Assembly (NCBI GenBank): GCA_938020525.1
Contig: CALIHW010000048.1
Coordinates: forward strand, 1 to 64,000
Origin: an uncultured Granulosicoccaceae bacterium
GTDB taxonomy: Bacteria; Pseudomonadota; Gammaproteobacteria; Granulosicoccales; Granulosicoccaceae
DNA length: 64,000 nucleotides
Direction of reading: 5' to 3'
Shown here: one piece after another, positions 35,001 to 63,288 of the stretch
Layout: every line of letters starts with the position of its first letter
Position numbering within the stretch: the first letter of the stretch is position 1
Notes under the pieces: model-generated
Database searches by the model: none
The model's input: the letters and a program-made list of their open reading frames with translations, nothing else
What the model was told of the DNA's origin: nothing
Translations under genes and position numbers: made by a program

Positions 35001-35299
35001 GTTCTCTGCCTATTATTGGTGTAAATACGTTTGTCAATCCGACTGATACTACCGAGGAACAGGTAATTGAACTTGCTCGTTCGACCAAAGAAGAAAAAGA
35101 AAGTCAGATTGCACGGCTGGAAAAATTTAAACATAAAAACGCATCTGAAGCTGAGGAGGCACTGGAGCGAATAAAGTCTGTCGCTATGTCTAATGGCAAC
35201 GTGTTTGCCGAGTTGGTTGATGCTGTGCAGTACTGCTCTCTTGGTCAGATTACTGATGCGCTATTTGAGGTGGGTGGCGAATACCGGCGAAACATGTAG
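32039..35299 (+). CDS. icmF: fused isobutyryl-CoA mutase / GTPase
   Basis: B12-binding [30 protein letters not shown]-loop [14 protein letters not shown], mutase domain ([29 protein letters not shown]) in one 1086-aa ORF. Confidence 0.95.
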
Positions 35300-43973: not shown

Positions 43974-45500
43974 TTACCAGGCTCTCTTCAGAAATTTGTT
44001 GCTGACTTTTCCCAATTGAATCATGGTGAGACTCCGCTCTTCTTTATCTAAAAGAGTCCAGTACGCTATTGCAATGTATACGGTTGCACCAATCAAGGCT
44101 TGACCTAGCAGTGAAAGGTATCCAGTGGGCGGCTGAGTTTTGGCGAAGTATGTAAGGATTGCGAACAATACGAGGCTGGCCGGTACTACCCTCCAATAGG
44201 TTTGCTTTACATAATCCAGTAGCGAGTAATTGATTACTCTACTGGTAAGAATCGGTGTGACCACCACATAGAACAGAATCTGTGTAGTAGCGGTTGCTGC
44301 GGCCACGCCTACCAGGCCGAATTTTTGAACCAGTATTATGCTTAAAATCAGGTTTGCAATAGAAAATGTCATATTGTAAGTGGCAAACTTCTGGTGATTC
44401 GCTGTACCAAGCAATATCGAATAGCTGATCAACTGTGGGCTTTTAATTAGCTGAGTCATAAACATAATCGTCAGTAAGGTTGAGCACTCGACGGCGTACC
44501 TGGGGCCCATCCAGATAGCGATGAATTCATCACCAAGAGCCAGAACGCCAATACACAGTAGGTTGGACAGCAGGATGACGGCTTTTGTACCTGAGATGTA
44601 GGTTTTATAGAGGTTCTTGTTTTGCGTGGCTTCCTGTTCGCTGAACACTGGCACGAATGTTTGCGCTACAGCTTGAATTAACTTGTTGCTGTACTCATTC
44701 AAGCTCCAAGGGATTGTGTATATGGTGATGGCTGCCGCCGAGAGAAAATATCCGATTACAAAAGCATCGGAGTAATAAATAAGCTGCAAGCCGAGCATGG
44801 TGAGGAAGGTGAATTTGCTATAGTTGAAAATCGAGACCATAGTCGATTTATCAGCGTTTTTTGTAGTTAGCTCTACCTGAGGCTCTACACGGCGCATTAT
44901 GAATATTAAAAGAAAAGTCGCCAGCACATGTGATATCAGGGATAAAATGCCCATCGACAGTAAGCCGTACCCGTTAGTCAGGGCAAAGTAAAATGCGATA
45001 GCCTTGAACAGTTGGATGAAAAGCGTTACCGCAGTGGTAATTTCGTTTCTTTGAAAGCCGTAGAATGCACCGAAGAAAACCCCGGAGCCGATAAAAATTG
45101 CAACATCAATAGCGGCAATGATGACAAGCGCATGGACTGTGTGCTGCATTTCTGGATCGAACTTGAATCCGTTGACGACAAGGTTTGCGAGAATCGGACT
45201 GAGCACAATCAGAAGCACACCGAGCAGCAGCATGATGACAATCGCTGACGATATAACGACGTTTAAAGATTTATAATCTTTGAGTGCTTTGTATTTGGAA
45301 ACGTATTTGGCGATCGCCGAGCTGACCCCGAGATCAAGCAGAGTCATATACCCTGCGAATGCCGAAATGATTGACCAGATGCCATAGTTGGTGTCGCCGA
45401 GGGTGTGAACCAAAAAGGGCGACAGCATAAACGCAATGACAATTGCGCCAATCATTCCAACATAGTTGGAAAATACATTTTTTGCGATGGTTCGAAAAAT
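43974..45500 (-). CDS. polysaccharide biosynthesis flippase (Wzx/MATE-type); possible ATT start at 45500 (first ATG 45455)
   Basis: GDTNYGIWSIISAFAGYMTLLDLGVSSAIAKYVSKY..., about 12-14 TM; in-frame upstream IAKNVFSNYVG and SD aaggg. Confidence 0.85.
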   Translation of the reverse strand: MFRTIAKNVFSNYVGMIGAIVIAFMLSPFLVHTLGDTNYGIWSIISAFAGYMTLLDLGVSSAIAKYVSKYKALKDYKSLNVVISSAIVIMLLLGVLLIVLSPILANLVVNGFKFDPEMQHTVHALVIIAAIDVAIFIGSGVFFGAFYGFQRNEITTAVTLFIQLFKAIAFYFALTNGYGLLSMGILSLISHVLATFLLIFIMRRVEPQVELTTKNADKSTMVSIFNYSKFTFLTMLGLQLIYYSDAFVIGYFLSAAAITIYTIPWSLNEYSNKLIQAVAQTFVPVFSEQEATQNKNLYKTYISGTKAVILLSNLLCIGVLALGDEFIAIWMGPRYAVECSTLLTIMFMTQLIKSPQLISYSILLGTANHQKFATYNMTFSIANLILSIILVQKFGLVGVAAATATTQILFYVVVTPILTSRVINYSLLDYVKQTYWRVVPASLVLFAILTYFAKTQPPTGYLSLLGQALIGATVYIAIAYWTLLDKEERSLTMIQLGKVSNKFLKRAW

Positions 45501-45518
45501 GACTGTAGCCCTTGGAGG

Positions 45519-46085
45519 TTAACGCTCTTTTATCGCGGCTGCCGGATTCCCGGCTACTATCATGTTATCGGCAACCGGGTGAACCACTACAGAACCGGCT
45601 GCAATAACGCATTTTTGCCCAATATCTGCCATAACAACGGCATTGTTTCCGATCCAGGTATCCTGGCCGATGCTGATTTTGGTGAGCTTGCCACCCTGTT
45701 CGCGAATAGGCACATCCATACTTTCAAAATTGTGCTGGTTTTTACCGCTTAAAATGTGAACTCCGCTACCTAAAAGACAGTCCTGACCGATCTTACAGCT
45801 GCCGATATTGCACTGCGGACCAATGTATGTGCCATTTTCAATTTCTGTGTCGATTTGAGAGAACAAAGTGCCAAATGATAAAACCACACCTTGTTCACAC
45901 TTTTTCATTGTTAGAGCGTAAAAGCTGTTACGCAGATAGCTGCCGCTCTTGCCTGGAAGCAAGCTCATAAATTGAGAGCAACTAGCAAAAGCGTCGTTCT
46001 GATTGATCAACGCCAACAATCGGTATGCGGTATACACCGGGAGTATCAAAATCATGGTGGTTGTCTGGACGACTTTCTTGATCAT
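45519..46085 (-). CDS. hexapeptide-repeat acyltransferase
   Basis: Left-handed beta-helix repeats (NGTYIGPQCNIGSCKIGQDCLLGSGVHIL... IGQDTWIGNNAVVMADIGQKCVIAAGSVV). Confidence 0.9.
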   Translation of the reverse strand: MIKKVVQTTTMILILPVYTAYRLLALINQNDAFASCSQFMSLLPGKSGSYLRNSFYALTMKKCEQGVVLSFGTLFSQIDTEIENGTYIGPQCNIGSCKIGQDCLLGSGVHILSGKNQHNFESMDVPIREQGGKLTKISIGQDTWIGNNAVVMADIGQKCVIAAGSVVVHPVADNMIVAGNPAAAIKER

Positions 46086-46413
46086 TGGCTACTAATAATT
46101 GTGATAGGGCGCGATACTTACAGCGTGAGAAAAACGGCGATGAAGCTCTTGGATGATTCAGTGAGGCTAAAGTTCTATTGATGATTGTGTCCGACGCAGC
46201 TGCACGATTATGCCATTTTCACGTCTGTCTTTCTGAGACAAATCGATCAGTTTCCTGTTTGACAAGGCAGAATGCCACTGAAATTGTGATATCTCACTTT
46301 TTGAAACATATGTTGACGGAGGTGCCTTGAAAACCACTAGCGGTGTCGCAAGGTGCTGAGGCTGACTGCGCTATACTTGCCGGATTAAATGTTACGGAAA
46401 ATTCCGACCATAA

Positions 46414-47856
46414 ATGTCAAAGCTAAAGCGGAAAATCAAAGAAGGCGTCAGAAAAGATAGTGGCTCCCTGTTGGAGTCTCTCCTGACTGAATCTGCGAAC
46501 GAAGACTTGATAAAAGATTCTGTGGAAAGTATCGGTACGCTCATCCAGATAGAGAAGGGGCTCCAGGAAGACAGAAAGAAGTTGTCTCGCCAGATTGGTG
46601 TTCTACGTAAGCGTGGTGAGGACACGGCAGATTTGATTGCCGGTGTGTCTGAAATTAGTGAAAAGATCAAACAGCTCGATACGGATATTGATCATCAGGT
46701 CGCACAAATCGAAAACTGCCTGAACCAAGGCAAGTCGGCTGCGGGGGATCCGCCAAACGCAACACAATTAGATGTACCCGCCCATCTGGCTGTGGTTGAG
46801 CATGCACTGGATTGTGATGCCAATCAGCTGCAGCTTGGCTGTGAGCCTGGTTTGGATGAGTCGGAATGGCAGGCATTTGTAGATTCACAGACGCACGCGA
46901 CGGTTTATCATGACGCCAGATGGCACAAATTGATTAAAGACAATTTTGGCCACAACCCGCAATATATTACTTGCCGTAAGCCTGACGGCTCGTTGTGTGG
47001 TGTATTTCCCACTGTGCATTTAAATAGCCGATTATTCGGTTCTTTTCTGCTTTCAATGCCGTACTTTAATTACGGTGGGCCGCTCACATCGCACCCTGAA
47101 GCTGCACAAAAAATGATGCAGTACGCTGCGGAAATCGGTACCTCGCTTGAGTGCACGCACCTGGAATCGAGAGACACGCTGCAGCGTGACCCGTGGCTTT
47201 GCAAGCAGCACAAAATTACTATGATATTGCCGCTGCCTGAAACAGATGAGCAGCTTGACCAACAGCTCGGAACCAAAGTCAGGGCACAGGTTAAACGTGC
47301 AGCGCGGGAAGATCTTGAATTTGTTGCTGGTGGTGCAGAACTATTGCCCGAGTTCTATCGTGTGTTTGCACACAATATGCGAGACCTCGGCACACCCGTT
47401 TATAGTCGTAAATTTTTTGCAAGCATTCTTGAATGTTTTCCGGGTCAGGCGAGTCTTACTATTGTCAGGCATGAAGGTGAACCAGTAGCCGCGGGATTCC
47501 TGCTCGGCTATAACGATAAGCTTGAAATTCCATGGGCATCGAGCTTGCGCCGAGCTAATCCTCTGGGTGCGAACATGTTTATGTACCGGCAGATACTTCG
47601 ATCCGCCATAGAACGAAAATATCAATATTTTGATTTTGGTAGATCCAGCAAGGGTGCCAGTACTCATAAGTTTAAAAAGCAATGGGGCGCATTGGAGCAC
47701 CCGTTATATTGGCACTATTGGCTGCGGGACTCAGGTGAGCTGCCGGAACTAAATCCGAACAACCCCAAGTACAAGCTGGTTATTTCTGCTTGGCAGAAGC
47801 TTCCGGTAGCAGTCGCGAATATTATAGGACCAACACTGGTCAGAAACCTGCCGTAA
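46414..47856 (+). CDS. FemAB-family protein (XrtA/PEP-CTERM-associated type) with N-terminal coiled-coil resembling SerRS tRNA-binding arm
   Basis: C-terminal FemAB/GNAT: GHNPQYITCRKPDGSLCGVFPTVHL...FGSFLLSMPYFNYGGPL...YQYFDFGRSSKGASTHKFKKQWGA; N-terminal LQEDRKKLSRQIGVLRKRGEDTADLIAGVSEISEKIKQLD. Confidence 0.85.
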   Translation: MSKLKRKIKEGVRKDSGSLLESLLTESANEDLIKDSVESIGTLIQIEKGLQEDRKKLSRQIGVLRKRGEDTADLIAGVSEISEKIKQLDTDIDHQVAQIENCLNQGKSAAGDPPNATQLDVPAHLAVVEHALDCDANQLQLGCEPGLDESEWQAFVDSQTHATVYHDARWHKLIKDNFGHNPQYITCRKPDGSLCGVFPTVHLNSRLFGSFLLSMPYFNYGGPLTSHPEAAQKMMQYAAEIGTSLECTHLESRDTLQRDPWLCKQHKITMILPLPETDEQLDQQLGTKVRAQVKRAAREDLEFVAGGAELLPEFYRVFAHNMRDLGTPVYSRKFFASILECFPGQASLTIVRHEGEPVAAGFLLGYNDKLEIPWASSLRRANPLGANMFMYRQILRSAIERKYQYFDFGRSSKGASTHKFKKQWGALEHPLYWHYWLRDSGELPELNPNNPKYKLVISAWQKLPVAVANIIGPTLVRNLP

Positions 47857-47885
47857 ACTTCTGTTGGATATACCTGGCTATTATT

Positions 47886-47909
47886 AGGCAGCCCGAAGTG
47901 ATGCTGCCT
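47886..47909. terminator. hairpin between convergent femAB-like and glycosyltransferase genes
   Basis: aggcagc-ccgaagtgat-gctgcct, weak T-rich tail. Confidence 0.5.
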
Positions 47910-47949
47910 GTGGTTTGTGTCTTGTTGTAATGCAGCCAGTTGTTTGCAG

Positions 47950-49110
47950 CTATGCAGCAATAGGAACGCGATTCAGGAGTTGCTGATATAGCTCGGTATA
48001 TTCAACGGCCATACGTCTGGCTGAGAACTTGTCGTTTATGTGCGCGGCCGCGGCTGCAGAAATTTCATTTGCAAGTTTTTCATCCCACAATAGCTTTTTG
48101 CAGCAATCGTAAAGCTCATTTTTGTTATTGAGAGTTGCTAATAAGCCTGTCTTGTTGTGCTCCAGTAGTTGATTCACGCCAGCTATATCGTAGGCTGCTA
48201 CGGGGACACCCATAGCCATTGATTCCATAAGACATCGAGGAATTCCCTCCAGAGTCGAACACATGACAAATAAGTCGAATGTTTTGAGGTATGAGAGCGG
48301 ATCAGTCTGAAATCCAAGAAAAGATATTTTGTCTCTGGAGCTTAGCGTATCAGCATATTCTTCAAACTTTGCTCGACTGATGCCATCGCCCAGGAGAACC
48401 AGCTCCAGGCCGCTGTTTTCAGAGGCCAGCTTGTCAAACACATCTAACAGGTGGCTGACATTTTTGCGGTCTATCATCTGGCCGATGAATCCGATAGTTT
48501 TCTTTTCTGGTAGATTTAGTGGCTCATTATCAGCACGGACTACAGGGTTCTCTGCAGGTTTGCGATACGCGATATCCTTTAAATCAACACCATTTCTGAT
48601 ATAGACGATTTTTTCATCGGGCACATTGTATTTCTGTACGTCGGCGTACAGCTCGCGAGAAAGCGGCACTGTGTAATCAAAGTATTTGAAAGTTCTGCAA
48701 CCGGCGGCGATAAACATCTCAAGCTTGCGGTCGTTGGTTTTTTCAAAGCCGTGTGGTGTGGTTATGCATTTAATACCAGCGACTTTGGCTGCAATTATGC
48801 CGAGTATGTCTGACTTGTATCCATGTGAATGCAATATATCAATCTGCTGATCTTTTATCAGTTTAACCAGAGTTTTGATAGCGCGCGGATCAAATCGCCC
48901 ACTCATTTTAACCTCATGACTGGTCATTCCAAGGGCGTTGAAATCACGCACGAGTTGTAAGTCCTGGTTTTCGCGCTCTTTGGTGACCACTAGCTCTGAA
49001 GTTACCAGAGTCGGGTCGCTGTTGTTGGCCAGCGCAAGAATCCATTTTTCCGCACCATAGAATCCAGTCGAACAAATGAAATGTAATACTTTTATCGGAG
49101 TATAGGTCAT
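47950..49110 (-). CDS. glycosyltransferase family 4-like
   Basis: STGFYGAEKWILALA, IGFIGQMIDRKNVSHLLDVF, CSTLEGIPRCLMESMAMGVPVAAYD. Confidence 0.9.
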   Translation of the reverse strand: MTYTPIKVLHFICSTGFYGAEKWILALANNSDPTLVTSELVVTKERENQDLQLVRDFNALGMTSHEVKMSGRFDPRAIKTLVKLIKDQQIDILHSHGYKSDILGIIAAKVAGIKCITTPHGFEKTNDRKLEMFIAAGCRTFKYFDYTVPLSRELYADVQKYNVPDEKIVYIRNGVDLKDIAYRKPAENPVVRADNEPLNLPEKKTIGFIGQMIDRKNVSHLLDVFDKLASENSGLELVLLGDGISRAKFEEYADTLSSRDKISFLGFQTDPLSYLKTFDLFVMCSTLEGIPRCLMESMAMGVPVAAYDIAGVNQLLEHNKTGLLATLNNKNELYDCCKKLLWDEKLANEISAAAAAHINDKFSARRMAVEYTELYQQLLNRVPIAA

Positions 49111-49135
49111 CGGGATTCAAGTAGTTTGGGATGGA

Positions 49136-51721
49136 CTAGCTGGCACGATTTCGTATCCAGCGCAGCTCATTCGAGATTCGGAATTTAGCCAGGCTTGACA
49201 TCAGCGTACCGGCGATGTGTTTGAAGTGTGAGCCGGGAGTGTAAAAACAGTCGTCCTGGTCAGCCACGACCACATCGCGAAGACCCGGGTACGGCAAGCT
49301 ATCTGTATCTATCATGGCGGATGGTCCATGATTTTGTAGTAGCAGTATTTGTATTCTTGCGAAGTGCAATGTATCGGATTGAGATAACTCCTCGACCAGA
49401 TAGTTCCTGAAGTATCGAGCACGTTCCAGAAATATAGTACGATCTTTCAGAGCATACTTATAAGCCGCGAATAACACGCCCACCTTGCGGGTTTCCTGAG
49501 CTATCCAGGTTGCATTGGGGTAGTCAAGATTTTCTGAGTCATGAAGATACGGTTGTTCATTTTCAACCATCCATTTGGCATAATGAAGCAAAATCGCGCG
49601 TGCATAGTAAAATTTGTTGTCGTGCTGGTCGAGTGACCTTTTCAGGTCAAGATAGCGCACGACTTCCTGCAGAAATACAATATAGAACCAAGTGTACTCG
49701 ACGTTCTTAAAGTCTCGTGCGTCAATATTATCATGTGGCCCTGCTGTCCTTTCGATTATTGTTTCTACTTTGTGTAACCAATCAGAATCTGCAGTGAGGT
49801 CATAGCAATCCATGAGAGTGCGAATATAGTTGCCAGTTTCTCGGTCCATGCGATACCGGTACTTAAAAGTTTTTGTACCTTTGCAGGTTTTAATAAAGTT
49901 TGCGGTATCTTCTTGTAGTGTTTTTCTGACGGTCTCAATCAGAGTTCCACTGCCTTCCTGGTAATGTCTAATCCAGTTCCCCAGATTAATGACCGTCTTT
50001 TTTGCTTCTTCATCGCCGGTCATAAAATAGTAGTACATGAGGCCGGTGCTGTAACAGTGACCGGAGCTTGGTCCGCCTCCTTTTTGTGGCTGCCCATTGT
50101 GGTCGATCTGATTAATAGAGTAAGTGCGATGGGAAGCGGTTTGGGCCTCCACATAGTGATCTGTATGCCAGAAATAACCGTTGTTGTATTCAGCTCGGTC
50201 TTCCTCAGTACGATAGATATCTATGTCCATGACGTGTTTAGCGAGATCAGTTGTGAGAGGTTGCCAGAAGTGGTCACCAGTTAATGCATATTGCCGAATA
50301 AATCCATAAACCGCGTCGTACTGGTTGTTGTAGTGGGATACATAGGGCCTTTTCAATTCTGTGTGATACGCTGCCTCGTGATCCGCGTAGATATCACCAA
50401 AGTTACGCCAGCTGTATTCGTCCAGATGCTCTCGTTTGGCGTAGAATCCCGTTTCATGGCTCTTAGATGGATCTAACAACGATTCGTATTTCTGACAGCT
50501 ATATTGGTCATCAAAATATCGAAAAACATCTGCCTCCCGGTATGCTGTTGCTGCAACGCATGCGAATGGCTTGTTTGTGTTCTTATTTTTTTTGGATTCA
50601 CTCAGTGAAGGCTCGAATGTAAAATCCATTTCGTGACGTTTTCGTTCGCCCCCCTGCAGTTCGTAGAGATCGCCGTGGTGAAAAGGGAACAGGCGCAGTG
50701 AGATTTTATTGCTATCAACGTCGATACTTTTTGGAAAATTCTGCCAGAAATTTGATGTCTTAATCGAGTATGCGGATCCACTGCACTCGATAGCTACTGA
50801 CGGGTCGGCTCGTTTGCCAGCATGAACGCTTTTATCACCGTTGTTCAACTGATAGCCACAGAACTGATTGCATACATTGCCGGCTGCGTTTACATGAACT
50901 GCGTTATTCCAGTGTTCTCCACCGCTTGAGGCCTGAAACAAACTGGTTGGCTGTTTGACGTCAATCCAGTCGGATCCTGGCTCTGCGAGTAGCTGAATAA
51001 ACGATTGCTCCGGATTTTGTATGGCGAACGAAAAATCTTTAAATTTTATCGATCCGGGGTCTCCCAGATCCCAGATACCGCCTGGGTGCAATGCGCGGTG
51101 CGGGTTATGTAATTCACATATAAGAGATATCTGTGCATTTGGCATTACCTCAAAAATGAATTTTGCGTGCAGCGTCTGTGTATCGTTGATGTTGTAAACA
51201 CCGCTAATTTGTATTTTGCAGGTCAGGCCATCGTTTTCCTGAAGTGACACGTCTGCTACCTGCAAGTCACATAGGCTATCGTCTTCAAGTACAAGTAGCG
51301 GCATGCAACTATCTTCCTGCCATACACCCGTACCGGCATAATTTACTGAGGGGAAAACACCGCTTTTACGGAATTCAAAAATTGCATCGCCACTACTAAC
51401 TGTAATCCCGTCACTATCCTCCGTCGCCTCCACTAACGAGGATTGCCCGATGGGGGCGCTAGTGTGGACTTTAAGATCGAGTTCTGGTGTTTTTACAGAT
51501 AGCGTTGCGATTTTTGCCAGACACCACTTGACGCTGCCGTCTGACCAGAGTGCTGTTTGAGTAATTCGACTTTGAATTAGTACTTCGGCGAATTTAATTT
51601 GGTCAACATCGATAGTTAGTGTGTCACAATCCTGCACTGAGCCTTTAGGCAAAGGTATCCCTACCCGAACAAAATTCGCTCCCGGCTGCAGGTTAGTCAG
51701 GGATAAGGTTATGGGGTTCAT
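49136..51721 (-). CDS. RIFT-barrel/PcRGLX-like polysaccharide-active protein (putative lyase/glycoside-processing)
   Basis: N-terminal ...NFVRVGIPLPKGSV...QSRITQTALWSDGSVKWCLAKIA typical of RIFT-barrel proteins, followed by long alpha-helical segments; ATG 51721 preferred. Confidence 0.65.
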   Translation of the reverse strand: MNPITLSLTNLQPGANFVRVGIPLPKGSVQDCDTLTIDVDQIKFAEVLIQSRITQTALWSDGSVKWCLAKIATLSVKTPELDLKVHTSAPIGQSSLVEATEDSDGITVSSGDAIFEFRKSGVFPSVNYAGTGVWQEDSCMPLLVLEDDSLCDLQVADVSLQENDGLTCKIQISGVYNINDTQTLHAKFIFEVMPNAQISLICELHNPHRALHPGGIWDLGDPGSIKFKDFSFAIQNPEQSFIQLLAEPGSDWIDVKQPTSLFQASSGGEHWNNAVHVNAAGNVCNQFCGYQLNNGDKSVHAGKRADPSVAIECSGSAYSIKTSNFWQNFPKSIDVDSNKISLRLFPFHHGDLYELQGGERKRHEMDFTFEPSLSESKKNKNTNKPFACVAATAYREADVFRYFDDQYSCQKYESLLDPSKSHETGFYAKREHLDEYSWRNFGDIYADHEAAYHTELKRPYVSHYNNQYDAVYGFIRQYALTGDHFWQPLTTDLAKHVMDIDIYRTEEDRAEYNNGYFWHTDHYVEAQTASHRTYSINQIDHNGQPQKGGGPSSGHCYSTGLMYYYFMTGDEEAKKTVINLGNWIRHYQEGSGTLIETVRKTLQEDTANFIKTCKGTKTFKYRYRMDRETGNYIRTLMDCYDLTADSDWLHKVETIIERTAGPHDNIDARDFKNVEYTWFYIVFLQEVVRYLDLKRSLDQHDNKFYYARAILLHYAKWMVENEQPYLHDSENLDYPNATWIAQETRKVGVLFAAYKYALKDRTIFLERARYFRNYLVEELSQSDTLHFARIQILLLQNHGPSAMIDTDSLPYPGLRDVVVADQDDCFYTPGSHFKHIAGTLMSSLAKFRISNELRWIRNRAS

Positions 51722-52052
51722 GGTGGCTGCTTCAACGGCTGTCTGGCGATCGGTGTTATACACGGTAATTGTCGCTAGGTTCTGCGAATAACATTTTTAT
51801 TTGGCAAATATTTGTGAATTAAAACTTATAATCGTACAGCTGAATCGACGAATGAGGCCTGCTCCGAATGTATCCAATTCCGAAATATACTCATCCAGAT
51901 CGAAACTGTTTCGTAAATTGAAGATCATAAAGGCCGTGCGTTTGTATACAAGGTCATGGCGCTGTCGTTGACAAACGACTAACAAATATCTGCAGGCAGA
52001 TTTCCCAGGCCTAAATAGGAAAGACACCCAATTATGGAAGATACTAAAGAGA

Positions 52053-53036
52053 TTGAACCAGACCGCCACTAATCCAGTCCGTGCGATCGCTATTTTAGCA
52101 GCTCTAGTTATCGGCAGCTTTTTGCTACTCGTGAGCTTTACGTTTCCAGAGGGCAACCGCACCTTCTCAGCGATTCAGAATTTTGGACACTTTTTGTTGT
52201 TTGCCCTGCTTGCATGGGCGGCTTTATCGATTGTGCTAGGTTTTTTTCGGCGACAAGCTGTTGCGGTGGCTGTGACCGGTATTGTGCTGATGCTGCTTGG
52301 ATTAGGTGTCGAGCTTTTTCAAACCGGATTGGCAAATAGAAGTGCGTCGATGTCGGATTTTGCGCTGGACGTGCTCGGGATCCTTGTTGGCTGTCTGTTT
52401 TTTTTCTTGGTTAAATTTTTCAGGCAAGGCAGGAAGTATCAAATGTTTACCGTTGGCTTTTTTCTATTATTCCTGACTACTATAGCATTGAGGCCGCTTA
52501 TTCCTTTGATCGGGTATGACCTTATGCGAGCTGATCTCCCGGTTGTTCGCAGCTTCAACCATCCGTTTGCGGAACAAAAAATCGAATCAGTAGGCGGAGC
52601 GATTTTTAAGAAACTGCCAAGCCGGGTGCTAGCCGGGTCAAACGCAGAATGTTGTACCCTGCATGTATCTTTTTCTACTGCTCGATACAGTGGCGTTGTT
52701 TTCGAAGAAGATGCCAGTTTACGCGCTGGTAGCTGGAGTGATTTTGAGAGCCTGAACATAAAAGTTTTCAGTTCTCTGCGAAATACTCGACAAATTGCAT
52801 TGCGAATTAACGACCGACTGCATAATAATCTCTACGAGGATAGATATAATAGCGTCCTCTCGATTTCGCCGGGTTTGAACGAGATAACTGTTCCATTACA
52901 GCAGATAGCTTCAATGGGCAGAGTGGGAAACTCAGGTCGAACAATGGATGTGAATGACGTTACTCGTATTCAGTTATTCACCAGCGAGGTTGAGAACCAG
53001 TTCACGCTGCAAGTTTTGAGCATTGAGCTCGAGTAA
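52053..53036 (+). CDS. VanZ-like membrane protein with C-terminal beta-sandwich (CBM-like) domain
   Basis: NFGHFLLFALLAWAALSI..ELFQTGLANRSASMSDFALDVLGILVG; extracytoplasmic ~150-aa beta-rich tail. Confidence 0.75.
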   Translation: MNQTATNPVRAIAILAALVIGSFLLLVSFTFPEGNRTFSAIQNFGHFLLFALLAWAALSIVLGFFRRQAVAVAVTGIVLMLLGLGVELFQTGLANRSASMSDFALDVLGILVGCLFFFLVKFFRQGRKYQMFTVGFFLLFLTTIALRPLIPLIGYDLMRADLPVVRSFNHPFAEQKIESVGGAIFKKLPSRVLAGSNAECCTLHVSFSTARYSGVVFEEDASLRAGSWSDFESLNIKVFSSLRNTRQIALRINDRLHNNLYEDRYNSVLSISPGLNEITVPLQQIASMGRVGNSGRTMDVNDVTRIQLFTSEVENQFTLQVLSIELE

Positions 53037-53097
53037 TGACGATAGGTGCAAGTTCGCCTTTTCTTTTAGCCAGTTTTAGCAATACCGTGGTGAGACT

Positions 53098-54711
53098 ATG
53101 TCAATAGCTGTTCTAGTGTATATGTTGCTGAGTTGCATCACTGCGGTGGTGATCCCCTGGGTGGGCATCATATTTTACTACCTGTTGGCGGTCGGTCAAC
53201 CGGAAGACATGTGGCCACATCATTTTGGTGAAGACAATCGTCTGTCACTCTTTATATCGCTGTCTGTCATCTTAGGTCTCGGGCTTGCCACAGCAACGCG
53301 GCAGGTAGACTGGAGACGATTGTTTGTTTTGCCTAATATTTTATTGATGCTCGTGCTGGTTGCATTCAACCTTTCAATTGCCGTTAGTCCGTTCGCGGAA
53401 TTTGTGGATATTAAGTTAAACAAGTTATCGTCCGCCGAGATGCTCGATATCTTTAATAAGATCATGATCATCTACTTTGCGGCTGTCTTATTGATTGACA
53501 CAAGATTCAAATTAATCTGTTTGTTGAGTGCCGTAGGTGGTGTTTTCCTCTACTACACATTGTGGGCAAACAAGATTTACGTTACCGGCGAATTCTGGCG
53601 TTTTGGAGACAACGGGCGCCTCAATGGTCCCTGGGGCTTGTACTACGATGAGAATTACCTGGCGATGCTATTCGTTCTGTGCACGCCGATTTTTTACTAC
53701 TTTTCTGTCGGAACTAACTACCGAATTATTCGATACGGTCTGTGGGTCTGTATCCCGCTTAGTTGGCACGCGTTGTTTTTGACAGGCTCACGCGGAGCAC
53801 TGCTGGCGCTGGGCGTCACGTGTACCTACATCTTTTTTCGCAGCTACAGTAAAAAAGCTTCATTGATACTTCTTGTTGGACTGTCTGTCGCTATCATTGA
53901 TCAAAGCGGAAACATGATTGGTCGAATTACTGACACGGTAAGTACGGAAGAATTGGAAAGAGACCGTGCTTTTATTGAAAACACGGAAGATTCCCCCGAG
54001 ATTAACAACAAGCCTGTTGATCCACGCTTGATTTCCTGGCAGGTTGGTCTGAACATCATGAAGGACTTTCCTCTTTTGGGGGTAGGCTCTGCTAACTTTA
54101 TGCGTGCGTGGCCTGAATATGAAGAGAGCGAGCCACATGTGGCTCACAATACGCTAATACAATTTGGTACTTCCTGTGGTGTCGGGGCTGCTTTGGTATA
54201 TCTCTACTTCTTGTTTCTAAGATTAAGAAATGTCGTATCGAAGCCGGATCCTGAGAAGAAGTTCGCACATGGATATCAGCGAGACTATCTTGATGATCTA
54301 CTGAACTCTCTTTTCATCGCTTTTTATACAGTGGCGTTGTTTCTTGATTTGATGATCATTGAATTGACGTATTTGATCTTCATTGCCGGTGCGTGCAAAT
54401 ATTGTCTCGACAAGCGGAAAAAGACTACTTTCAGATCATTGATTGATTCGATTTATCGCTGGCGACAGGAAGCAACAAAAGAAGCGCCGGTCCGGGAGAG
54501 TGCATATGCGTCCACGATTGCAGTGCCAGAGATGATGTCGCCAAAGATGATGCAAGAGATGCCGCAAAATCCAAGCGCTATCTACGAAATGGAATCGGAG
54601 CAACAGCAAAATTTAGAGCCTGGGCAACAGCAACAGACAGATGAGCCACGTAGCAGTCAGTACTCTACACCTACAAATCGGTACGCATCAACCAGTCTGT
54701 ATGCCAACTAG
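53098..54711 (+). CDS. O-antigen ligase / exosortase A-associated O-glycosylation ligase family
   Basis: TGSRGALLALGVTCTYI, INNKPVDPRLISWQVGLNIMKDFPLLGVGSANFM..ESEPHVAHNTLIQFGTSCG. Confidence 0.87.
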   Translation: MSIAVLVYMLLSCITAVVIPWVGIIFYYLLAVGQPEDMWPHHFGEDNRLSLFISLSVILGLGLATATRQVDWRRLFVLPNILLMLVLVAFNLSIAVSPFAEFVDIKLNKLSSAEMLDIFNKIMIIYFAAVLLIDTRFKLICLLSAVGGVFLYYTLWANKIYVTGEFWRFGDNGRLNGPWGLYYDENYLAMLFVLCTPIFYYFSVGTNYRIIRYGLWVCIPLSWHALFLTGSRGALLALGVTCTYIFFRSYSKKASLILLVGLSVAIIDQSGNMIGRITDTVSTEELERDRAFIENTEDSPEINNKPVDPRLISWQVGLNIMKDFPLLGVGSANFMRAWPEYEESEPHVAHNTLIQFGTSCGVGAALVYLYFLFLRLRNVVSKPDPEKKFAHGYQRDYLDDLLNSLFIAFYTVALFLDLMIIELTYLIFIAGACKYCLDKRKKTTFRSLIDSIYRWRQEATKEAPVRESAYASTIAVPEMMSPKMMQEMPQNPSAIYEMESEQQQNLEPGQQQQTDEPRSSQYSTPTNRYASTSLYAN

Positions 54712-54716
54712 TCGCC

Positions 54717-55841: not shown

Positions 55842-55858
55842 TGCGATATCCGGTAGCC

Positions 55859-57754
55859 CTATGTGGTGACCGGGTCGATATATCGTGCCCACCACAACTC
55901 AAAAGCCAGCATGCTCCAGAGCTCGCTGGAGTAATCCCTCTCACTGCTTTGGTGTTGCTGCCAGATAGTTTTCACTTCGTCGGGTTTAAAGAACTGTGAT
56001 AAGCCGTTGTTTGCACTAAACAGCTTTGATTCTGCGATTTGTTTAATTTCGTTTCTGAACCAATTGGCCAGTGGTACTGAAAATCCCATTTTTTTTCTAT
56101 AAAGCGTCTCATCTGTTAGTAGCCGTTCCATTGTGGTTTTCAGAATATACTTGGACTCTTTGTCTTTAAGTTTCAGATTAGCCGGAATAGTTGCTGCGTA
56201 CTCCACAACTCGGTAGTCGAGTATCGGTGCACGAGTTTCAAGTGAGTTGGCCATACTCATGCGGTCGACCTTGACCAGAATGTCTCCGGGCAGGTAGCTC
56301 TTGATATCGGTGTAGAGAATTTTAGAAAGGTGATTGTCTGTATCTGCAGATTTGTACAGATCGGTAATGATATCAGCTGGATTGTAATCTGAAAGTTCGG
56401 ATTTGAATTCGTCCCGTACGAGGCGATCCCAAAGCTGCTCACTGAAAAATGTATTTGAAATAAAGAATCCTGTGTCTGACGACACCGCTAAAGAACCCAA
56501 CAGCGATGCACCGCGGCGTAGCTGTCTATTGTTGCTATCGAAAAGCATTTGTGAGCCCTTTTTGAAAATACTGCCCGGGAGCATTGAAGGCACCAGCGAA
56601 CGGATTTTATTCTCGAGCTGATCCTGTTGATACTTGCTATAGCCTGCAAAATTTTCATCCCCGCCATCACCGGCCAATGCAACCGTAACCATTGATCTGG
56701 CCAGTTTGGATACAAAGTAAGTGGGTACAAAGGAAGGGTCAGCAAACGGCTCGTCAAAGTGGCCAGCGATATCAATTAGATTATCTTCTACATTTTCTTT
56801 TACTGTCAGCTCGTGATGATCAGTTTTGAACTGCTCCGCTACCATGGCAGCGTAGGCTACTTCATCAAATTTTTCTGAATCAAAGCCGATTGCACAGGTT
56901 GTAACGGGCTTGTCACTGTTGCCGGCCATTAGCCCAACGACCGCGCTCGAATCTACCCCACCGCTCAGAAATGCACCTAGTGGCACATCACTCACCATGC
57001 GACTTTTTACACTGTCGTCCAGCAGGTTGTAGAGCTCGTCCTGAATTTGATCAACCGGTTTATCGTTGGTATTGCTGAACGAGACATCCCAGTACTGTTG
57101 TATTTTTACATCGTCCTTGCTGACGAGCATCCAGTGACCGGCCTGCACTTTGTCAATATATTTAAAAATTGATTTTGTTTCGGGAACGTATTGATAGAAG
57201 AAGAAATCTTTTACTGCATCATTTCTAATAGTGCGATCAATATCCGGTGCCGCAAGGATTGCCTTTATTTCCGAGGCAAAAACGAATTGATTGTCTTTGC
57301 GGTAGTAGTAGAGTGGCTTCTTGCCGAGTCTGTCTCTGGCGAGAAACAGTGTCTTTTCTACGTTGTCCCAGATTGCGATGGAAAACATACCATTCAGTAG
57401 TTGCAGGCATTCGGGACCAAGTTTTTCGTACAACGCCAACATGACTTCTGTATCAGAAGAACCTTTGAAGTTGATACCTTCTTCCTCAAGCTCAGCTCTT
57501 AAAGTCTGGAAATTGTATATCTCACCATTAAAAACCGTAACATATCGCCCTGAAGGGGAGTTCATAGGTTGACGACCGGACTCTGTCAGATCGATAATCG
57601 CGAGCCTTCTGTGACACAGTCCGACATTTGTGTCTGCGAAGACATCAGAATCATCAGGCCCTCGATGGGCAATTGTGTTGCCCATGATTTCAAGCAGTGC
57701 TTCAGGGTTGCTGTACGAATGATTGAACTGAGTAAAACCTGCGATGCCGCACAT
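55859..57754 (-). CDS. asparagine synthase (glutamine-hydrolysing), XrtA-locus type
   Basis: MCGIAGFTQF N-terminal Cys; VSDVPLGAFLSGGVDSSAVVGLM; ATG 57754. Confidence 0.95.
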   Translation of the reverse strand: MCGIAGFTQFNHSYSNPEALLEIMGNTIAHRGPDDSDVFADTNVGLCHRRLAIIDLTESGRQPMNSPSGRYVTVFNGEIYNFQTLRAELEEEGINFKGSSDTEVMLALYEKLGPECLQLLNGMFSIAIWDNVEKTLFLARDRLGKKPLYYYRKDNQFVFASEIKAILAAPDIDRTIRNDAVKDFFFYQYVPETKSIFKYIDKVQAGHWMLVSKDDVKIQQYWDVSFSNTNDKPVDQIQDELYNLLDDSVKSRMVSDVPLGAFLSGGVDSSAVVGLMAGNSDKPVTTCAIGFDSEKFDEVAYAAMVAEQFKTDHHELTVKENVEDNLIDIAGHFDEPFADPSFVPTYFVSKLARSMVTVALAGDGGDENFAGYSKYQQDQLENKIRSLVPSMLPGSIFKKGSQMLFDSNNRQLRRGASLLGSLAVSSDTGFFISNTFFSEQLWDRLVRDEFKSELSDYNPADIITDLYKSADTDNHLSKILYTDIKSYLPGDILVKVDRMSMANSLETRAPILDYRVVEYAATIPANLKLKDKESKYILKTTMERLLTDETLYRKKMGFSVPLANWFRNEIKQIAESKLFSANNGLSQFFKPDEVKTIWQQHQSSERDYSSELWSMLAFELWWARYIDPVTT

Positions 57755-57992
57755 TGTGTAAATCCGTAGGTTGTTGCGAGTTTGAGGATCAGATTTTGAG
57801 TTTAAGTAGGTGAATCGACCAGCTCCCGGCTGCAAATATTAGCGGCTGATTGCCGATAATCTAATCACGAAGATGGACCTTAGATCTGCTACCAGGTAGC
57901 GATGGGAGACCTAGCTAGCATCAGCGACCGAAAAAATGCGGATCGGACATCCCGAGCCGATGAAAGGCTAAATCATAACTGTTGTAATCGAA

Positions 57993-58871
57993 ATGACAAC
58001 CAGCACAAACTCCAACCCGCGTCCCACAAATGCAATGACAGTGGATGTCGAAGACTACTTTCAAGTTTCTGCTTTTGATCCGTATGTCGACCGGTCTACC
58101 TGGGGAAATTACGAAAGCCGGGTCGAGAGCAATACCGATCGAATATTGAGCATGTTTGACGAGCATAATGTGAAAGGCACCTTTTTCACATTAGGCTGGG
58201 TGGCTGAAAAATATCCAGCAGTGGTGCGTCGAATCGTTGCGGGCGGGCATGAGCTGGCATCTCACGGGTGGGATCACATAATGGTCACCCGCTTATCCAG
58301 GGAAGAGTTTGCGCAGGATATAAAGCGTGCAAAGCAAACACTTGAAGATGTGACTGGTGCACAGGTGAGTGGTTACCGTGCGCCGAGCTACTCTTTCACA
58401 AAAAAGAATGACTGGGCCCACACTGTGCTCGCTGAGCAGGAATATCGTTACAGTTCAAGTGTTGCTCCGATTCAACATGATTTGTACGGAATACCAGATG
58501 CACCGCGGTTTGCGCACTCTCGGGCAGAAGGTGCGGTTGTGGAATTACCCATTACCACGACAAGAGTTTTAGGGCGAAATCTGCCTTGCGGTGGTGGTGG
58601 CTGGTTTCGACTTTATCCGTATCAAGTAAGTCGCTGGGCAATTAATCGAGTTCACAAGAACGATAGCGAACGCACTATTTTCTACTTTCATCCATGGGAG
58701 ATTGATCCAAAACAACCACGAATTGATGGGCTGAGCGCACGTACCCGTTTTCGTCATTATCAGAATTTAGCTCGAATGGAGCACAAAATAGAGCGGCTGT
58801 TAAAGGATTTTGAATGGGGAACAATGACTGATGTGTTTGCAGAAGAGCTTGCTGTTAAAGCGGCTGCTTAG
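57993..58871 (+). CDS. polysaccharide deacetylase, DUF3473/XrtA-associated
   Basis: MTVDVEDYFQVSAF, TFFTLGWVAEKYPAVVRRIVAGGHELASHGWDH, GYRAPSYSF, FYFHPWEIDP. Confidence 0.95.
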   Translation: MTTSTNSNPRPTNAMTVDVEDYFQVSAFDPYVDRSTWGNYESRVESNTDRILSMFDEHNVKGTFFTLGWVAEKYPAVVRRIVAGGHELASHGWDHIMVTRLSREEFAQDIKRAKQTLEDVTGAQVSGYRAPSYSFTKKNDWAHTVLAEQEYRYSSSVAPIQHDLYGIPDAPRFAHSRAEGAVVELPITTTRVLGRNLPCGGGGWFRLYPYQVSRWAINRVHKNDSERTIFYFHPWEIDPKQPRIDGLSARTRFRHYQNLARMEHKIERLLKDFEWGTMTDVFAEELAVKAAA

Positions 58872-59135
58872 ATAATTAATTGTAAAGTGTTCGATTTATT
58901 TAACATTTACGAAACTATGCGATTTAGTATGAGATGCTTGTCACACGGGTTAATACAACATACTGAATTTGCATCTGATGCTCTGCGCTTAGAGCGAAGG
59001 TTTAAGGTACCTTCAGCCGCTATACAGACGGAGCTAAACCCTAAGTGATACATTTTTGTAGCGTTGTGAGAATAGGTTCGAGGTACGTAAACTGTAATTT
59101 CCGTATAGTACGCCGTTTTCCAGCAGGCCAAGTTT

Positions 59136-59984
59136 ATGTATCAGGAACATTACAGTTTAAAAGCGGAACCTTTTCCACTGTCCTCACGAGGCGAGGGTCT
59201 GTTTTTTCATGAATCATTTAAACGATGTATGTCTTACCTTTTGTATGCTTTTCACAGAGGTGAAGGAATGGTCTTGATCACTGGCTTGCCCGGGGGTGGT
59301 AAGACCACCTTAATTGAAGAGATCGTGACAGAGACGAGCGATATCGAAATGCCGGTCACAGTGGTGGATTGTGCGAATTTGGCAGGTAGTGATCTACTTG
59401 AGCTCTATTTGGAAGGGCTTGGTGTGGTTGCGGCCCCTGATGTATCCAATGCACGTGCCGTTCGCGATACTTTAGCCAGCATCCGTCAGGCGAGGCGACC
59501 GGTATTGGTGCTTGATGACGCGCACTTGCTTTCGGAAGAAGATTTTAAGACAGTTTACATGTTGTGCAATCTTAAGCAGAAGGGTGTGCACCTTGTACAA
59601 GTTGTGTTGGCCGGCCATCCAAAACTGCGAGAAACACTGCTGTCACCCGGTAAAGAGCAGTTGCATCAGCGATTAGTTGCAACTTGCAACATTGATGCAC
59701 TGGAGATGTCAGAGACACGAGAGTACATTCTGCATAAGTTGCGTGCAGTTGGTTGGACCGATAATCCAAGTGTTGCAGAAAGTGTCTATGGAGCGATTTA
59801 CAGATCCAGTCTCGGTGTCCCGCGGTGGATCGACTTGATTTGCAGTCGCATGTTGTTGAATGCCATGGCTGGTGATAGAGAATTTATTTCCCTTGATGAT
59901 ATTTGTGAAGTAATCAGGGACCTTATTAACGAAGATTTGCTGCCGGATCAGGTTCGGTTGTCAACCCAGAAAAAAGTAGCTTGA
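59136..59984 (+). CDS. XrtA-associated AAA ATPase (ExeA-like)
   Basis: MYQEHYSLKAEPFPLSS, Walker A GLPGGGKTTL, Walker B VLVLDDAHLL. Confidence 0.93.
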   Translation: MYQEHYSLKAEPFPLSSRGEGLFFHESFKRCMSYLLYAFHRGEGMVLITGLPGGGKTTLIEEIVTETSDIEMPVTVVDCANLAGSDLLELYLEGLGVVAAPDVSNARAVRDTLASIRQARRPVLVLDDAHLLSEEDFKTVYMLCNLKQKGVHLVQVVLAGHPKLRETLLSPGKEQLHQRLVATCNIDALEMSETREYILHKLRAVGWTDNPSVAESVYGAIYRSSLGVPRWIDLICSRMLLNAMAGDREFISLDDICEVIRDLINEDLLPDQVRLSTQKKVA

Positions 59985-59992
59985 GTGCCAAC

Positions 59993-60661
59993 ATGAAAAC
60001 TTTGTTTACTTCTGTAATAGCATTGTTCGTCGCCGCCGGATGTACCTCCGGGCCATCGGGTGTCGCCCAGCCGAGTCAGACTCCGACAACTGTGGAGGCG
60101 GTAGCTGCAGCTCCAGGTAGCAATGGCGTACCGGCGGCCACAGCTCAGGAAGGTGGTTATCAGTACGTCATAGGCCCTGGGGACACACTTGATATTTTTG
60201 TGTGGGGTTACGAAGACCTGTCAGTACAGGTTCCTGTACGACCGGACGGTAGAATTACAACGCGCCTTATTGAAGATATGCAGGCGAGCGGTAAGACTCC
60301 GACTGAGCTTGCACGAGACATTGAAAAGAAATACGTCACCTATGTGAAGAATCCAACAGTGACTATCACGGTTGATCAGTTCGTTGGCGATCCGTCGCAA
60401 CAGATTAAGGTGGTTGGCGGAGGCTCTGAGCCGAAGACTGTCCCTTATCGGAACAACATGACTGTGCTCGATGTCATGATCGAGGTTGGCGGGTTGAGCA
60501 AATTCTCCAGCGGTAACAAAGCCCGCTTGGTACGCACAGAGAATGGCCAGCAACGCTCTTATAGAGTCCGATTGCAAAGCCTGTTGAAAGGTGGCGATAT
60601 CAAAGCAAACCGTCCGGTACAGCCGGGCGACATTATCATTATTCCTGAGTCGTGGTTCTAG
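59993..60661 (+). CDS. XrtA-type polysaccharide export (Wza-like) lipoprotein
   Basis: Lipobox FVAAGC; YVIGPGDTLDIFVWGYEDLSVQVPVRPDGRIT. Confidence 0.95.
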   Translation: MKTLFTSVIALFVAAGCTSGPSGVAQPSQTPTTVEAVAAAPGSNGVPAATAQEGGYQYVIGPGDTLDIFVWGYEDLSVQVPVRPDGRITTRLIEDMQASGKTPTELARDIEKKYVTYVKNPTVTITVDQFVGDPSQQIKVVGGGSEPKTVPYRNNMTVLDVMIEVGGLSKFSSGNKARLVRTENGQQRSYRVRLQSLLKGGDIKANRPVQPGDIIIIPESWF

Positions 60662-60716
60662 GTTCAGCTGGAATAACGATTGGTAATCCTAATTATATAA
60701 AGGCTAGTAAAAGATA

Positions 60717-62306
60717 ATGCATGAGTTATTTGACAAGTTAAGTGAGTTTGTCTGGGGTGTCACCAGATACCGATGGACTGCGTTGGCAATCGCCTGGACC
60801 CTGGCATTGCTGGGATGGTTAATGGTTGCCCAGGTTGATTCCCGCTATCCGGCTACAGCTCGGCTGTTCGTTGATACTAACCGTATTCTCGGGCCCTTGA
60901 TTCGCGACATTTCCGTTCAGACTGACGTCAAGAAGCAGGTTGCCTTAATGAGTAAAACTCTATTGAGCCGCCCGAACCTTGAAGCATTGATAGAGAAGAA
61001 CAACCTTGATGTCGGCATACTGCCTGGCGATACAACTGGCTATGAAGATCTTATAGAAACTCTTGGAGGCGAGATCGAGATCTATGATACCAACGGTACC
61101 AAGTCTCTCTACTCAGTAGAATATTCACACGAGCAGGCAGGCGTAGCGCTGGGTGTTGTTGAAACACTGGTTGATATTTTCGTCAATAGCTCGCTGGATG
61201 AAGAGCGCAAAGATAATCAAACTGCTATCACTTTTCTTGACAAGCAGATTGAGGATTATGAGCAGCGTTTGACTGCTGCAGAACAACGCCTCGCTGATTT
61301 CAAATTACAGAATGCAGGATCGTTACCCGGCGAAGAAGGCGGGTACTACCAGCGCATGGAAAACCTTGTGGTCCAGCAGAGAGCCTCTGAACTTGGATTT
61401 CAGGAAGCTAGAAACACGCGTAACTCACTGCGTGAACAGCTGGCACAGGTTGAGCGTAATGTGCTGAGTTCAGCGAGTTCTGTATCACCGGAAGATGCTC
61501 GCATAGAGGAATTGCAAAACCAGCTTGATGAGCTGCTTGTCAGATTTACTGATCGCCATCCGCAGGTGTCCATACTACGACAGTCTATTGCTGACCTCGA
61601 AGCTTCGAAGTTAAGAAACACTGGTAACTTCGGCAATCGAAATGCACTACTGCAAGGAGATAAGGTTTATCAGGAAGTGAGCACACTGCTGGCTAACGCA
61701 GAGGCAGAAGTTGCAAAGTTCCAGGCGAGAACTGCTAACTATGATTCTCGTGTGAGCTCGCTAAAGAGCACCGCTGACAGTTTTCCTTTGGTGGAAGCTG
61801 AACTGGTGCAACTTGATCGTGACTACAACACGGTACGTCAGCAGCATGCAACTCTTCTGAATAAGAGAGAACAGGCCGCATTGACAGGTAACGTTGAGCG
61901 AGACTCTAACGACGTAAAGATCCGATTGATCGATCCGCCGTTTGTACCGTCACGACCTACTGATCCAGACAAGTTGTTGCTAAACGCGCTTGTATTGGTC
62001 GGAAGTATTGCAGTCGGTGTTGCTGTGAGTTTCTTCCTCTCGCTGTTACACCCGGTTTTCTATAATCGTCGCGCGTTAGAGCACTACACACGAATTCCTG
62101 TACTGGGTGGTGTGAGTATGTCTCAACAAGCTTCGGGTCGGTTCGATAACACGGTATCCAATTTAAACTTCGGTATATTGGCTTTACTGTTACCAGTTGT
62201 TTTTGGTGGATTGTTGTACATGCAAGTGAAAAATACTCAGGTATACGAGAGTCTTAAAATCGACGCATTCAGCGGAACTAAACAAGTTTCTATGCTGGAC
62301 CAGTAA
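60717..62306 (+). CDS. XrtA-type polysaccharide chain-length determinant (Wzz-like)
   Basis: SRYPATARLFVDTNRILGPLI, long coiled coil, LVEAELVQLDRDYNTVRQQHATLLNKRE, IDPPFVPSRPTDPDKLLL. Confidence 0.95.
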   Translation: MHELFDKLSEFVWGVTRYRWTALAIAWTLALLGWLMVAQVDSRYPATARLFVDTNRILGPLIRDISVQTDVKKQVALMSKTLLSRPNLEALIEKNNLDVGILPGDTTGYEDLIETLGGEIEIYDTNGTKSLYSVEYSHEQAGVALGVVETLVDIFVNSSLDEERKDNQTAITFLDKQIEDYEQRLTAAEQRLADFKLQNAGSLPGEEGGYYQRMENLVVQQRASELGFQEARNTRNSLREQLAQVERNVLSSASSVSPEDARIEELQNQLDELLVRFTDRHPQVSILRQSIADLEASKLRNTGNFGNRNALLQGDKVYQEVSTLLANAEAEVAKFQARTANYDSRVSSLKSTADSFPLVEAELVQLDRDYNTVRQQHATLLNKREQAALTGNVERDSNDVKIRLIDPPFVPSRPTDPDKLLLNALVLVGSIAVGVAVSFFLSLLHPVFYNRRALEHYTRIPVLGGVSMSQQASGRFDNTVSNLNFGILALLLPVVFGGLLYMQVKNTQVYESLKIDAFSGTKQVSMLDQ

Positions 62307-62340
62307 CCGAACAACTAATTTTAAAGTAAGGACAGTAGTA

Positions 62341-63288
62341 ATGGGTGCAATTGAAAAGGCTATTGCGAGATTTAATGTTGCGAGTAATCCTGATGCAATC
62401 CAGGATGCGCAAGTTGAAGAAGCTGCTCGAATTCCGCCAATTCCCGGCGTACCGCCAAAGACGCCAGTCATGACTGACAACCCGTCGGTGCAGTTGGTGA
62501 AGAGCGGTAGTTTTCGATCGAATGCGGCTAACTCGAACAAGACGTTCACGCTGCCGTATAAAGCAATGGAAAAGGAAGGATTGTTGTCGTTGTCAGCTCC
62601 GAGAAACCAGATGTCGGAAGAATACCGGGCTATCAAGCGTCCGATACTGGCAGCGATCGATTCGCAGGATCCGACAACCGATATTGATGGGGTTAACCGT
62701 AATGTGATTATGGTGACCAGCTGCATCTCCGGAGAAGGGAAAACTTTCTCCGCGATCAACCTGGCTTTGAGTATTGCTATGGAAAAAGATCGCGAAGTGT
62801 TGCTTGTTGATGGTGATATCACCAATCCCAGTTGTGGTAAGCGACTTGGTTTCGACAAAGAAAGCACAGGTTTGACTGAGCTTCTGCAAAACAAGGATCG
62901 TGATCCGGAAGAGTTGATCTGGCAGTCAGACCTGCCAAACTTTCGTTTCCTGCCGGCGGGCATTTCCCATAACCACGTGACTGAACTGCTGTCGAGTAGA
63001 AATATGTCTGACCTGGTTGATGGTTTGTCGCGCAACTTTCCGGAGCGAGTGATTATTATTGACTCGGCACCATTGCTTCTAACTAGTGAGGCGAGCATTG
63101 TCGCTGATTTGACTGGTCAGATTGTTTTTGTTGTCAGTGCTGAATCGACTACCAGAGGTATGGTGTCAGACGCTTTGAGAATCGTTAATGATCACTCCAG
63201 AGTCGGATTCCTGCTCAACAAGACTCGCAAGGCTCAGAACAATATCTATGGCTACGGTTACGGCTATGGTTTCTCAAATACCGGTTAA
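62341..63288 (+). CDS. XrtA-associated tyrosine autokinase (CpsD/CapB family)
   Basis: MSEEYRAIKRPIL, Walker A TSCISGEGKTFSAINLA, Tyr-rich C-terminus NNIYGYGYGYGF. Confidence 0.95.
   Translation: MGAIEKAIARFNVASNPDAIQDAQVEEAARIPPIPGVPPKTPVMTDNPSVQLVKSGSFRSNAANSNKTFTLPYKAMEKEGLLSLSAPRNQMSEEYRAIKRPILAAIDSQDPTTDIDGVNRNVIMVTSCISGEGKTFSAINLALSIAMEKDREVLLVDGDITNPSCGKRLGFDKESTGLTELLQNKDRDPEELIWQSDLPNFRFLPAGISHNHVTELLSSRNMSDLVDGLSRNFPERVIIIDSAPLLLTSEASIVADLTGQIVFVVSAESTTRGMVSDALRIVNDHSRVGFLLNKTRKAQNNIYGYGYGYGFSNTG

Follow-up and report, generated by a model that had tools for sequence, protein, structure and literature searches.

Gene organization of the exopolysaccharide locus

The window, meaning the whole 64,000-nucleotide stretch of Granulosicoccaceae DNA analyzed here, contains a complete-looking XrtA-type exopolysaccharide (EPS) locus without XrtA at positions 43974-63288. 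Within it, the forward-strand open reading frame at 46414-47856 translates exactly as first described into a protein of 480 amino acids, with the peptide quoted at that time (residues 38-104) encoded by 46525-46725. The features of this gene, its product and the neighboring EPS genes are the following (window coordinates):

46414..47856, + strand, whole gene, a TIGR03019-type FemAB transferase with an N-terminal Seryl_tRNA_N arm, 480 aa (translation)
46414..46500, + strand, residues 1-29, short helices 3-14 and 16-24 ahead of the hairpin, as in seryl-tRNA synthetase (SerRS) (AlphaFold2; the hhalign alignment to the SerRS N-domain starts at arm column 10)
46501..46611, + strand, residues 30-66, predicted long helix 1 of the hairpin arm (AlphaFold2)
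46573..46599, + strand, residues 54-62, RKKLSRQIG, SerRS-type motif (RNxxSKxIG in SerRS; common to both when aligned jointly)
46612..46626, + strand, residues 67-71, RGEDT, predicted turn at the hairpin tip (AlphaFold2)
46627..46740, + strand, residues 72-109, predicted long helix 2 of the hairpin arm (AlphaFold2; Foldseek of the arm alone)
46741..46857, + strand, residues 110-148, linker, of low confidence at about 111-120 (pLDDT)
46858..47853, + strand, residues 149-480, predicted FemX-type double-GNAT catalytic core of 332 residues (TIGR03019 match, Foldseek, FemX profile match)
47671..47676, + strand, F420-K421, aligned to F304-K305 of Weissella viridescens FemX
55859..57835, - strand, EPS-locus amidotransferase resembling asparagine synthase (TIGR03108-like; 688 bits, below the cut-off of 817)
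57993..58871, + strand, XrtA-type polysaccharide deacetylase (TIGR03006; 430 bits, cut-off 276)
59136..63288, + strand, XrtA-type EPS assembly genes for the ATPase (TIGR03015), export protein (TIGR03027), chain-length determinant (TIGR03007) and tyrosine autokinase (TIGR03018)

The locus also encodes glycosyltransferases, an O-antigen-ligase-like protein and a priming glycosyltransferase, and the XrtA-type EPS families found around the FemAB gene bear out its original placement inside an exopolysaccharide locus. The gene arrangement around FemAB is preserved in relatives, and among the arm-bearing loci of at least 15 kb an EPS-type glycosyltransferase lies nearby in 37 of 41 and a deacetylase in 26 of 41. 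The TIGR03006 deacetylase could be what gives the glycan a free amine. Two further proteins are encoded in the window: one of 875 aa (49136-51763), without an NCBIfam match, which neighbors FemAB in several loci from Granulosicoccaceae, and one of 1086 aa (32039-35299), which by eye resembles a fused B12-dependent acyl-CoA mutase and G-protein domain. The window holds no tRNA genes, and one tRNA-Leu gene lies about 45 kb downstream of the locus.

Exosortase (PF09721) had no match in the genome of the window (assembly 93% complete) and was likewise undetected in the 13 relatives carrying the orthologue (14/14 genomes without it), while elsewhere it was above the cut-off in 43 of 50 genomes with the TIGR03019 family. 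Because of this absence, the label "XrtA locus" used in the original prediction is, for these genomes, a naming legacy. The persistence of FemAB and EPS genes without XrtA in Granulosicoccaceae suggests that FemAB serves the polysaccharide rather than PEP-CTERM protein sorting. An apparent anti-correlation between arm and exosortase in the relatives (0/14 vs. 6/6) was discarded, as it fails outside the family, where most arm-bearing genomes have exosortase.

The N-terminal arm and seryl-tRNA synthetase

From profile comparisons, the arm (residues 1-110) is almost certainly homologous to the Seryl_tRNA_N domain (PF02403) of SerRS and distinct from a generic coiled coil. Seryl_tRNA_N scored 29.9 bits on the whole protein (residues 42-103) and 33.6 bits on residues 1-122, against a curated cut-off of 28.2, and within residues 1-122 no other Pfam family was above its own cut-off. 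Among the orthologues, all 14 arms matched this family in Pfam at E ≤ 1 (best 2.1e-9), with the runner-up family matching only 7/14 arms at 0.013 or worse; counted per genome, PF02403 was above the cut-off in 7 of 14 and matched at E ≤ 0.001 in 12 of 14, and in one relative (G008) the match covers profile positions 5-101. When the arm alignment was compared by hhalign with an alignment of the SerRS N-domain built from 18 genomes, the two matched over 94 columns, almost the whole domain, with 96.8% probability and an E-value of 2.8e-10. None of 4,200 shuffles preserving the hydrophobic pattern equalled the real score.

Searches of wider databases gave the same ranking. Against 177,635 PDB sequences, the 14-arm profile placed SerRS in positions 1-8 (6.8e-7 to 0.003), followed by designed bundles and kinesin coils; the whole-protein profile likewise ranks SerRS first, and in genome after genome the second match of the FemAB profile is SerRS. 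The arm profile found matches in 239 of 274 gammaproteobacterial genomes sampled across the class; among the matches listed, almost all were SerRS-sized (~425-470 aa), usually one per genome, and the two of these that were translated in full were both SerRS. Two FemAB proteins (G249 and G275) were also among the matches listed. In 57 related genomes, nearly every non-SerRS match of Seryl_tRNA_N above the cut-off was the FemAB itself, the exception being a 1759-aa frame in G020, which passes the cut-off only when neighboring matches in the frame are counted.

These shuffles and the PDB and genome searches, together with the Foldseek results below, exclude chance similarity and place the match above coiled-coil background. 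The reading as a generic coiled coil on an ordinary GNAT of an EPS locus has some coiled coils with weak PF02403 matches to its credit (G020, G044 and G029) but is refuted as extremely improbable, since SerRS always comes first, the shuffles always fall below the real score, and among the matches listed in the 239 genomes the profile picks the SerRS-sized protein with other coiled coils absent.

The full-length AlphaFold2 model (65 sequences) has a mean pLDDT of 94 and a pTM of 0.80, with predicted helices at residues 3-14, 16-24, 30-66 and 72-109, a turn at 67-71, a linker and a double-GNAT core. The hairpin is modelled as two antiparallel helices of 37-38 residues, most of each with pLDDT above 90, and residues 1-122 modelled alone reach a pLDDT of 84. 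In a Foldseek search of the arm-alone model against 350,542 chains, SerRS occupied the first 12 places (E 0.015 to 0.19); the E-values are weak singly, and it is the ranking of these predicted structures that serves as evidence.

Conservation within the arm

Orthologues were found in 13 relatives of the same family (Granulosicoccaceae), every one with the arm, so that the arm is present in 14/14 of the close orthologues found. Neither of the two outcomes named at the outset as refuting the idea, a match no better than coiled-coil background or an arm missing from close orthologues, was therefore observed. In the full-length alignment of these 14 orthologues, the invariant residues among the first 121 are R54, L57, S58, R59, I61 and G62, which in sequence exactly match the SerRS-type motif RxxLS[KR]xIG. 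The positions common to the FemAB arms and SerRS in a joint alignment are R54, S58, R59/K, I61, G62, A64, K/R65, D70, L74, V78 and K86, which form the distal half of the hairpin, and the FemAB arms have K55 and K66 as additional conserved residues. The present arm resembles the SerRS N-terminal domain in motif, helix layout and length, and predicted structure; however, the SerRS domain sits on a class II synthetase core and the present arm on a transferase, and the FemAB arms have not kept the basic residues of SerRS in the proximal part (R37/R38, RR 20-21). As far as the alignments can tell, retention of the distal, SerRS-like half fits with continued tRNA contact.

Within the wider arm class, the IG-type motif is found in 41/55 proteins, F[GK] replaces it in 11/55, and three fit neither pattern, including L075, which reads LSGKIG. 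The arm has drifted in the F[GK] proteins. The change from IG to FK (e.g., VARAFK, TSRQFK) was seen in L058, L102, L104, L106, L110, L111, L112 and L117, and for these FK arms a changed tRNA partner or a lost tRNA contact is possible.

The catalytic core

The region downstream of the arm matches TIGR03019 (pepcterm_femAB), a FemAB family that takes its name from XrtA/PEP-CTERM systems, with 360 bits over residues 151-480, above the equivalog cut-off of 260.35; with both Seryl_tRNA_N and TIGR03019 above their cut-offs, the fusion of a FemAB-family protein to a SerRS-like arm stands as first described. The Pfam family FemAB (PF02388) scored 18.7 bits, under its cut-off of 24, for which reason the protein is not filed as PF02388 FemAB and the claim made here is one of FemAB-like working. 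When the whole model was compared with the PDB by Foldseek, places 1-23 went to FemX, FemA, Sbb17/Sba18 and the LPGS/MprF/DUF2156 group, all of them aminoacyl-tRNA-dependent transferases or domains belonging to that class, with Weissella viridescens FemX at the top (3.8e-16) and acyl-CoA GNATs ranking below these 23.

The core alignment of 29 homologues matched Weissella FemX by profile (2e-11), with F420-K421 falling on F304-K305 and K421 invariant across the 29 homologues. Both F304 and K305 of FemX have been reported as essential for activity (PMC4964394). What had been described as a normal FemAB/GNAT-type region thus has a predicted FemX-type double-GNAT fold with the F-K pair kept, and it is very likely the core of an aminoacyl-tRNA-dependent transferase, a class whose members pass an amino acid from tRNA onto an amine.

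Comparison with known aminoacyl transferases

W. viridescens FemX (1NE9, 4II9) shares the core fold and the catalytic F-K pair but has no arm, and its substrates are UDP-MurNAc-pentapeptide and Ala-tRNA(Ala). The FemA and FemX of Staphylococcus aureus (1LRZ, 6SNR) are, like the present protein, double-GNAT aminoacyl transferases and were among the best fold matches. PMC4964394, citing Benson 2002, describes for S. aureus FemA a long arm of antiparallel helices, which was likened to that of SerRS and for which tRNA binding was proposed. The idea that a FemABX enzyme carries a SerRS-like arm is therefore not new, having its precedent in FemA. However, the FemA arm (246-307) interrupts the second GNAT domain, whereas the present arm is N-terminal; neither 1LRZ nor 6SNR was found when the arm profile was searched against PDB sequences at E up to 10, so that the FemA arm is without detectable sequence kinship, whereas the present arm is a SerRS homologue by sequence.

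The FemX-like VlmA (valanimycin) and Sbb17/Sba18 are aminoacyl-tRNA-dependent, as proposed here, VlmA being likened by description; unlike the present protein, they belong to natural-product pathways and a SerRS-type arm is undescribed in them. Among these FemABX-like enzymes, VlmA uses Ser-tRNA(Ser) (PMC12945691). A literature search with limited coverage of subscription journals found nothing on the fusion or on FemAB in exosortase papers, nor did it turn up a paper in which the FemAB proteins of XrtA-type EPS loci are given a reaction. The fusion architecture may already be listed in automatic domain databases.

Distribution and origin of the arm

The best 80 loci found by scanning GTDB genomes are of two sizes, ~430-500 aa with the arm (55) and ~345 aa without it (25), in which arm-bearing forms are over-represented because the scan gave the best loci only. 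The arm-bearing taxa include Granulosicoccaceae, Spongiibacteraceae, Cellvibrionaceae, Marinobacter and other Gammaproteobacteria, with a few records under other names (Acidovorax sp. SRB_14 and a MAG with the label Verrucomicrobiaceae). When the class was sampled evenly, TIGR03019 was above the cut-off in 85/369 genomes, and the arm was present in three of these 85 (the genome of the window, G249 and G275), its absence being judged from inspection of ten other open frames of at least 415 aa. Such long frames of other class members were considered as further arm carriers and rejected, being mostly upstream read-through without the arm.

The arm-bearing proteins are a Gammaproteobacteria-centred minority of TIGR03019, and most members have no arm. 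A typical member has ~345 aa and no arm, compared with 480 aa and an arm in the present protein, the EPS context being common to both. The proposal that the arm would give XrtA-locus FemAB proteins in general a chemistry does not hold, since most TIGR03019 proteins lack it, and for the same reason the arm is dispensable for the basic reaction. In the unconstrained tree of the core the arm requires two changes; a single clade of all arm-bearing proteins was not rejected (p-AU 0.60), and thus a single gain is compatible with the data.

Proposed mechanism and alternatives

The arm homology, the predicted core fold, the conservation of the catalytic pair and the conserved position near EPS genes are the basis in hand for a reading in which a FemX-type aminoacyl-tRNA transferase uses an acquired SerRS hairpin to grip a class II tRNA, with Ser-tRNA(Ser) as donor and an amine on an EPS precursor or linked molecule as acceptor; taken as a whole, this is the account we favor, with fair confidence. 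SerRS reads tRNA(Ser) through a helix of this domain placed between the T-arm and the variable arm (PMC11479938). In the proposed mechanism, a FemX-type aminoacyl-tRNA-dependent transferase would have acquired a SerRS-type helical hairpin at its N-terminus, and the hairpin would, as in SerRS, hold a class II tRNA where its long variable arm and T-arm form a cleft, so that the charged 3' end is brought to the GNAT active site near F420-K421. The tRNA selected by the SerRS arm is tRNA(Ser), which makes Ser-tRNA(Ser) the most likely donor. The acceptor would most likely be a free amino group, either on a precursor of the exopolysaccharide or on a molecule linked to it, and the amino acid would end up in amide linkage; an amino sugar that the locus's deacetylase has exposed may be one such acceptor. 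Taken separately, tRNA binding by the arm in the present enzyme is likely, serine as the transferred amino acid is somewhat favored, and an acceptor on the EPS or its precursor is put forward tentatively, at slightly below even chances.

The alternative that survives best is that the SerRS-derived hairpin has been reused to dimerize, to dock onto an EPS enzyme or to bind a partner other than tRNA, and that the core finds the aminoacyl-tRNA through its acceptor stem, as FemX does. It would agree with the arm-less majority of TIGR03019 proteins, with the drift of the arm in several lineages and with W. viridescens FemX, which has no arm and in which a helix of GNAT domain 2 was proposed to contact the tRNA acceptor stem (PMC12945691). 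However, the most conserved arm residues are the SerRS motif and the distal basic residues and not a heptad surface alone, and the arm is kept in every close relative, which leaves this alternative rather unlikely, though worth weighing.

If the hairpin does grip a class II tRNA, donors other than Ser-tRNA(Ser) may be considered. Bacterial tRNA(Leu) and tRNA(Tyr) also have a long variable arm. Use of Leu-tRNA(Leu) or Tyr-tRNA(Tyr) would have a parallel in the FemABX-like DhpH, which takes Leu-tRNA(Leu) (PMC12945691), but it is improbable: the arm is a homologue of the SerRS arm, whose contact with the tRNA is how SerRS picks out serine isoacceptors (PMC11479938), and the distal residues it shares are SerRS residues.

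A further long-variable-arm tRNA charged by SerRS is tRNA(Sec), and selA and selB are on the contig of the window, ~20 kb downstream of FemAB (L149 4276-9180; ~67.3-72.2 kb of contig C48). Although selA was found in 13/14 arm-bearing Granulosicoccaceae, it was present in only one of the 27 arm-bearing genomes outside this family, so that tRNA(Sec) cannot be the general donor and is largely ruled out as such; Ser-tRNA(Sec) as the donor is very improbable. In G003, G005, G006 and G012, selA also shares a contig with FemAB at a similar distance.

Implications for exopolysaccharide biology

The preferred reading, with Ser-tRNA(Ser) as donor, leads to a tentative idea of tRNA-dependent EPS serylation, for which the odds are somewhat against but which is possible: the arm-bearing clade may have captured the tRNA-reading domain of SerRS and may divert Ser-tRNA(Ser) from translation to the decoration of EPS repeat units, for example at amines exposed by the deacetylase. 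The SerRS arm on one FemAB clade offers a testable hint to the donor class (aminoacyl-tRNA) and to its identity (a long-variable-arm tRNA, probably that for serine), and it is a sequence-level case of the structural proposal made for S. aureus FemA, that SerRS-like arms hold the tRNA for aminoacyl transferases. If true, serylation would add a new type of modification to those of glycans, an aminoacyl transferase would have captured a domain from a synthetase, and translation pools would be linked to the chemistry of the biofilm matrix.
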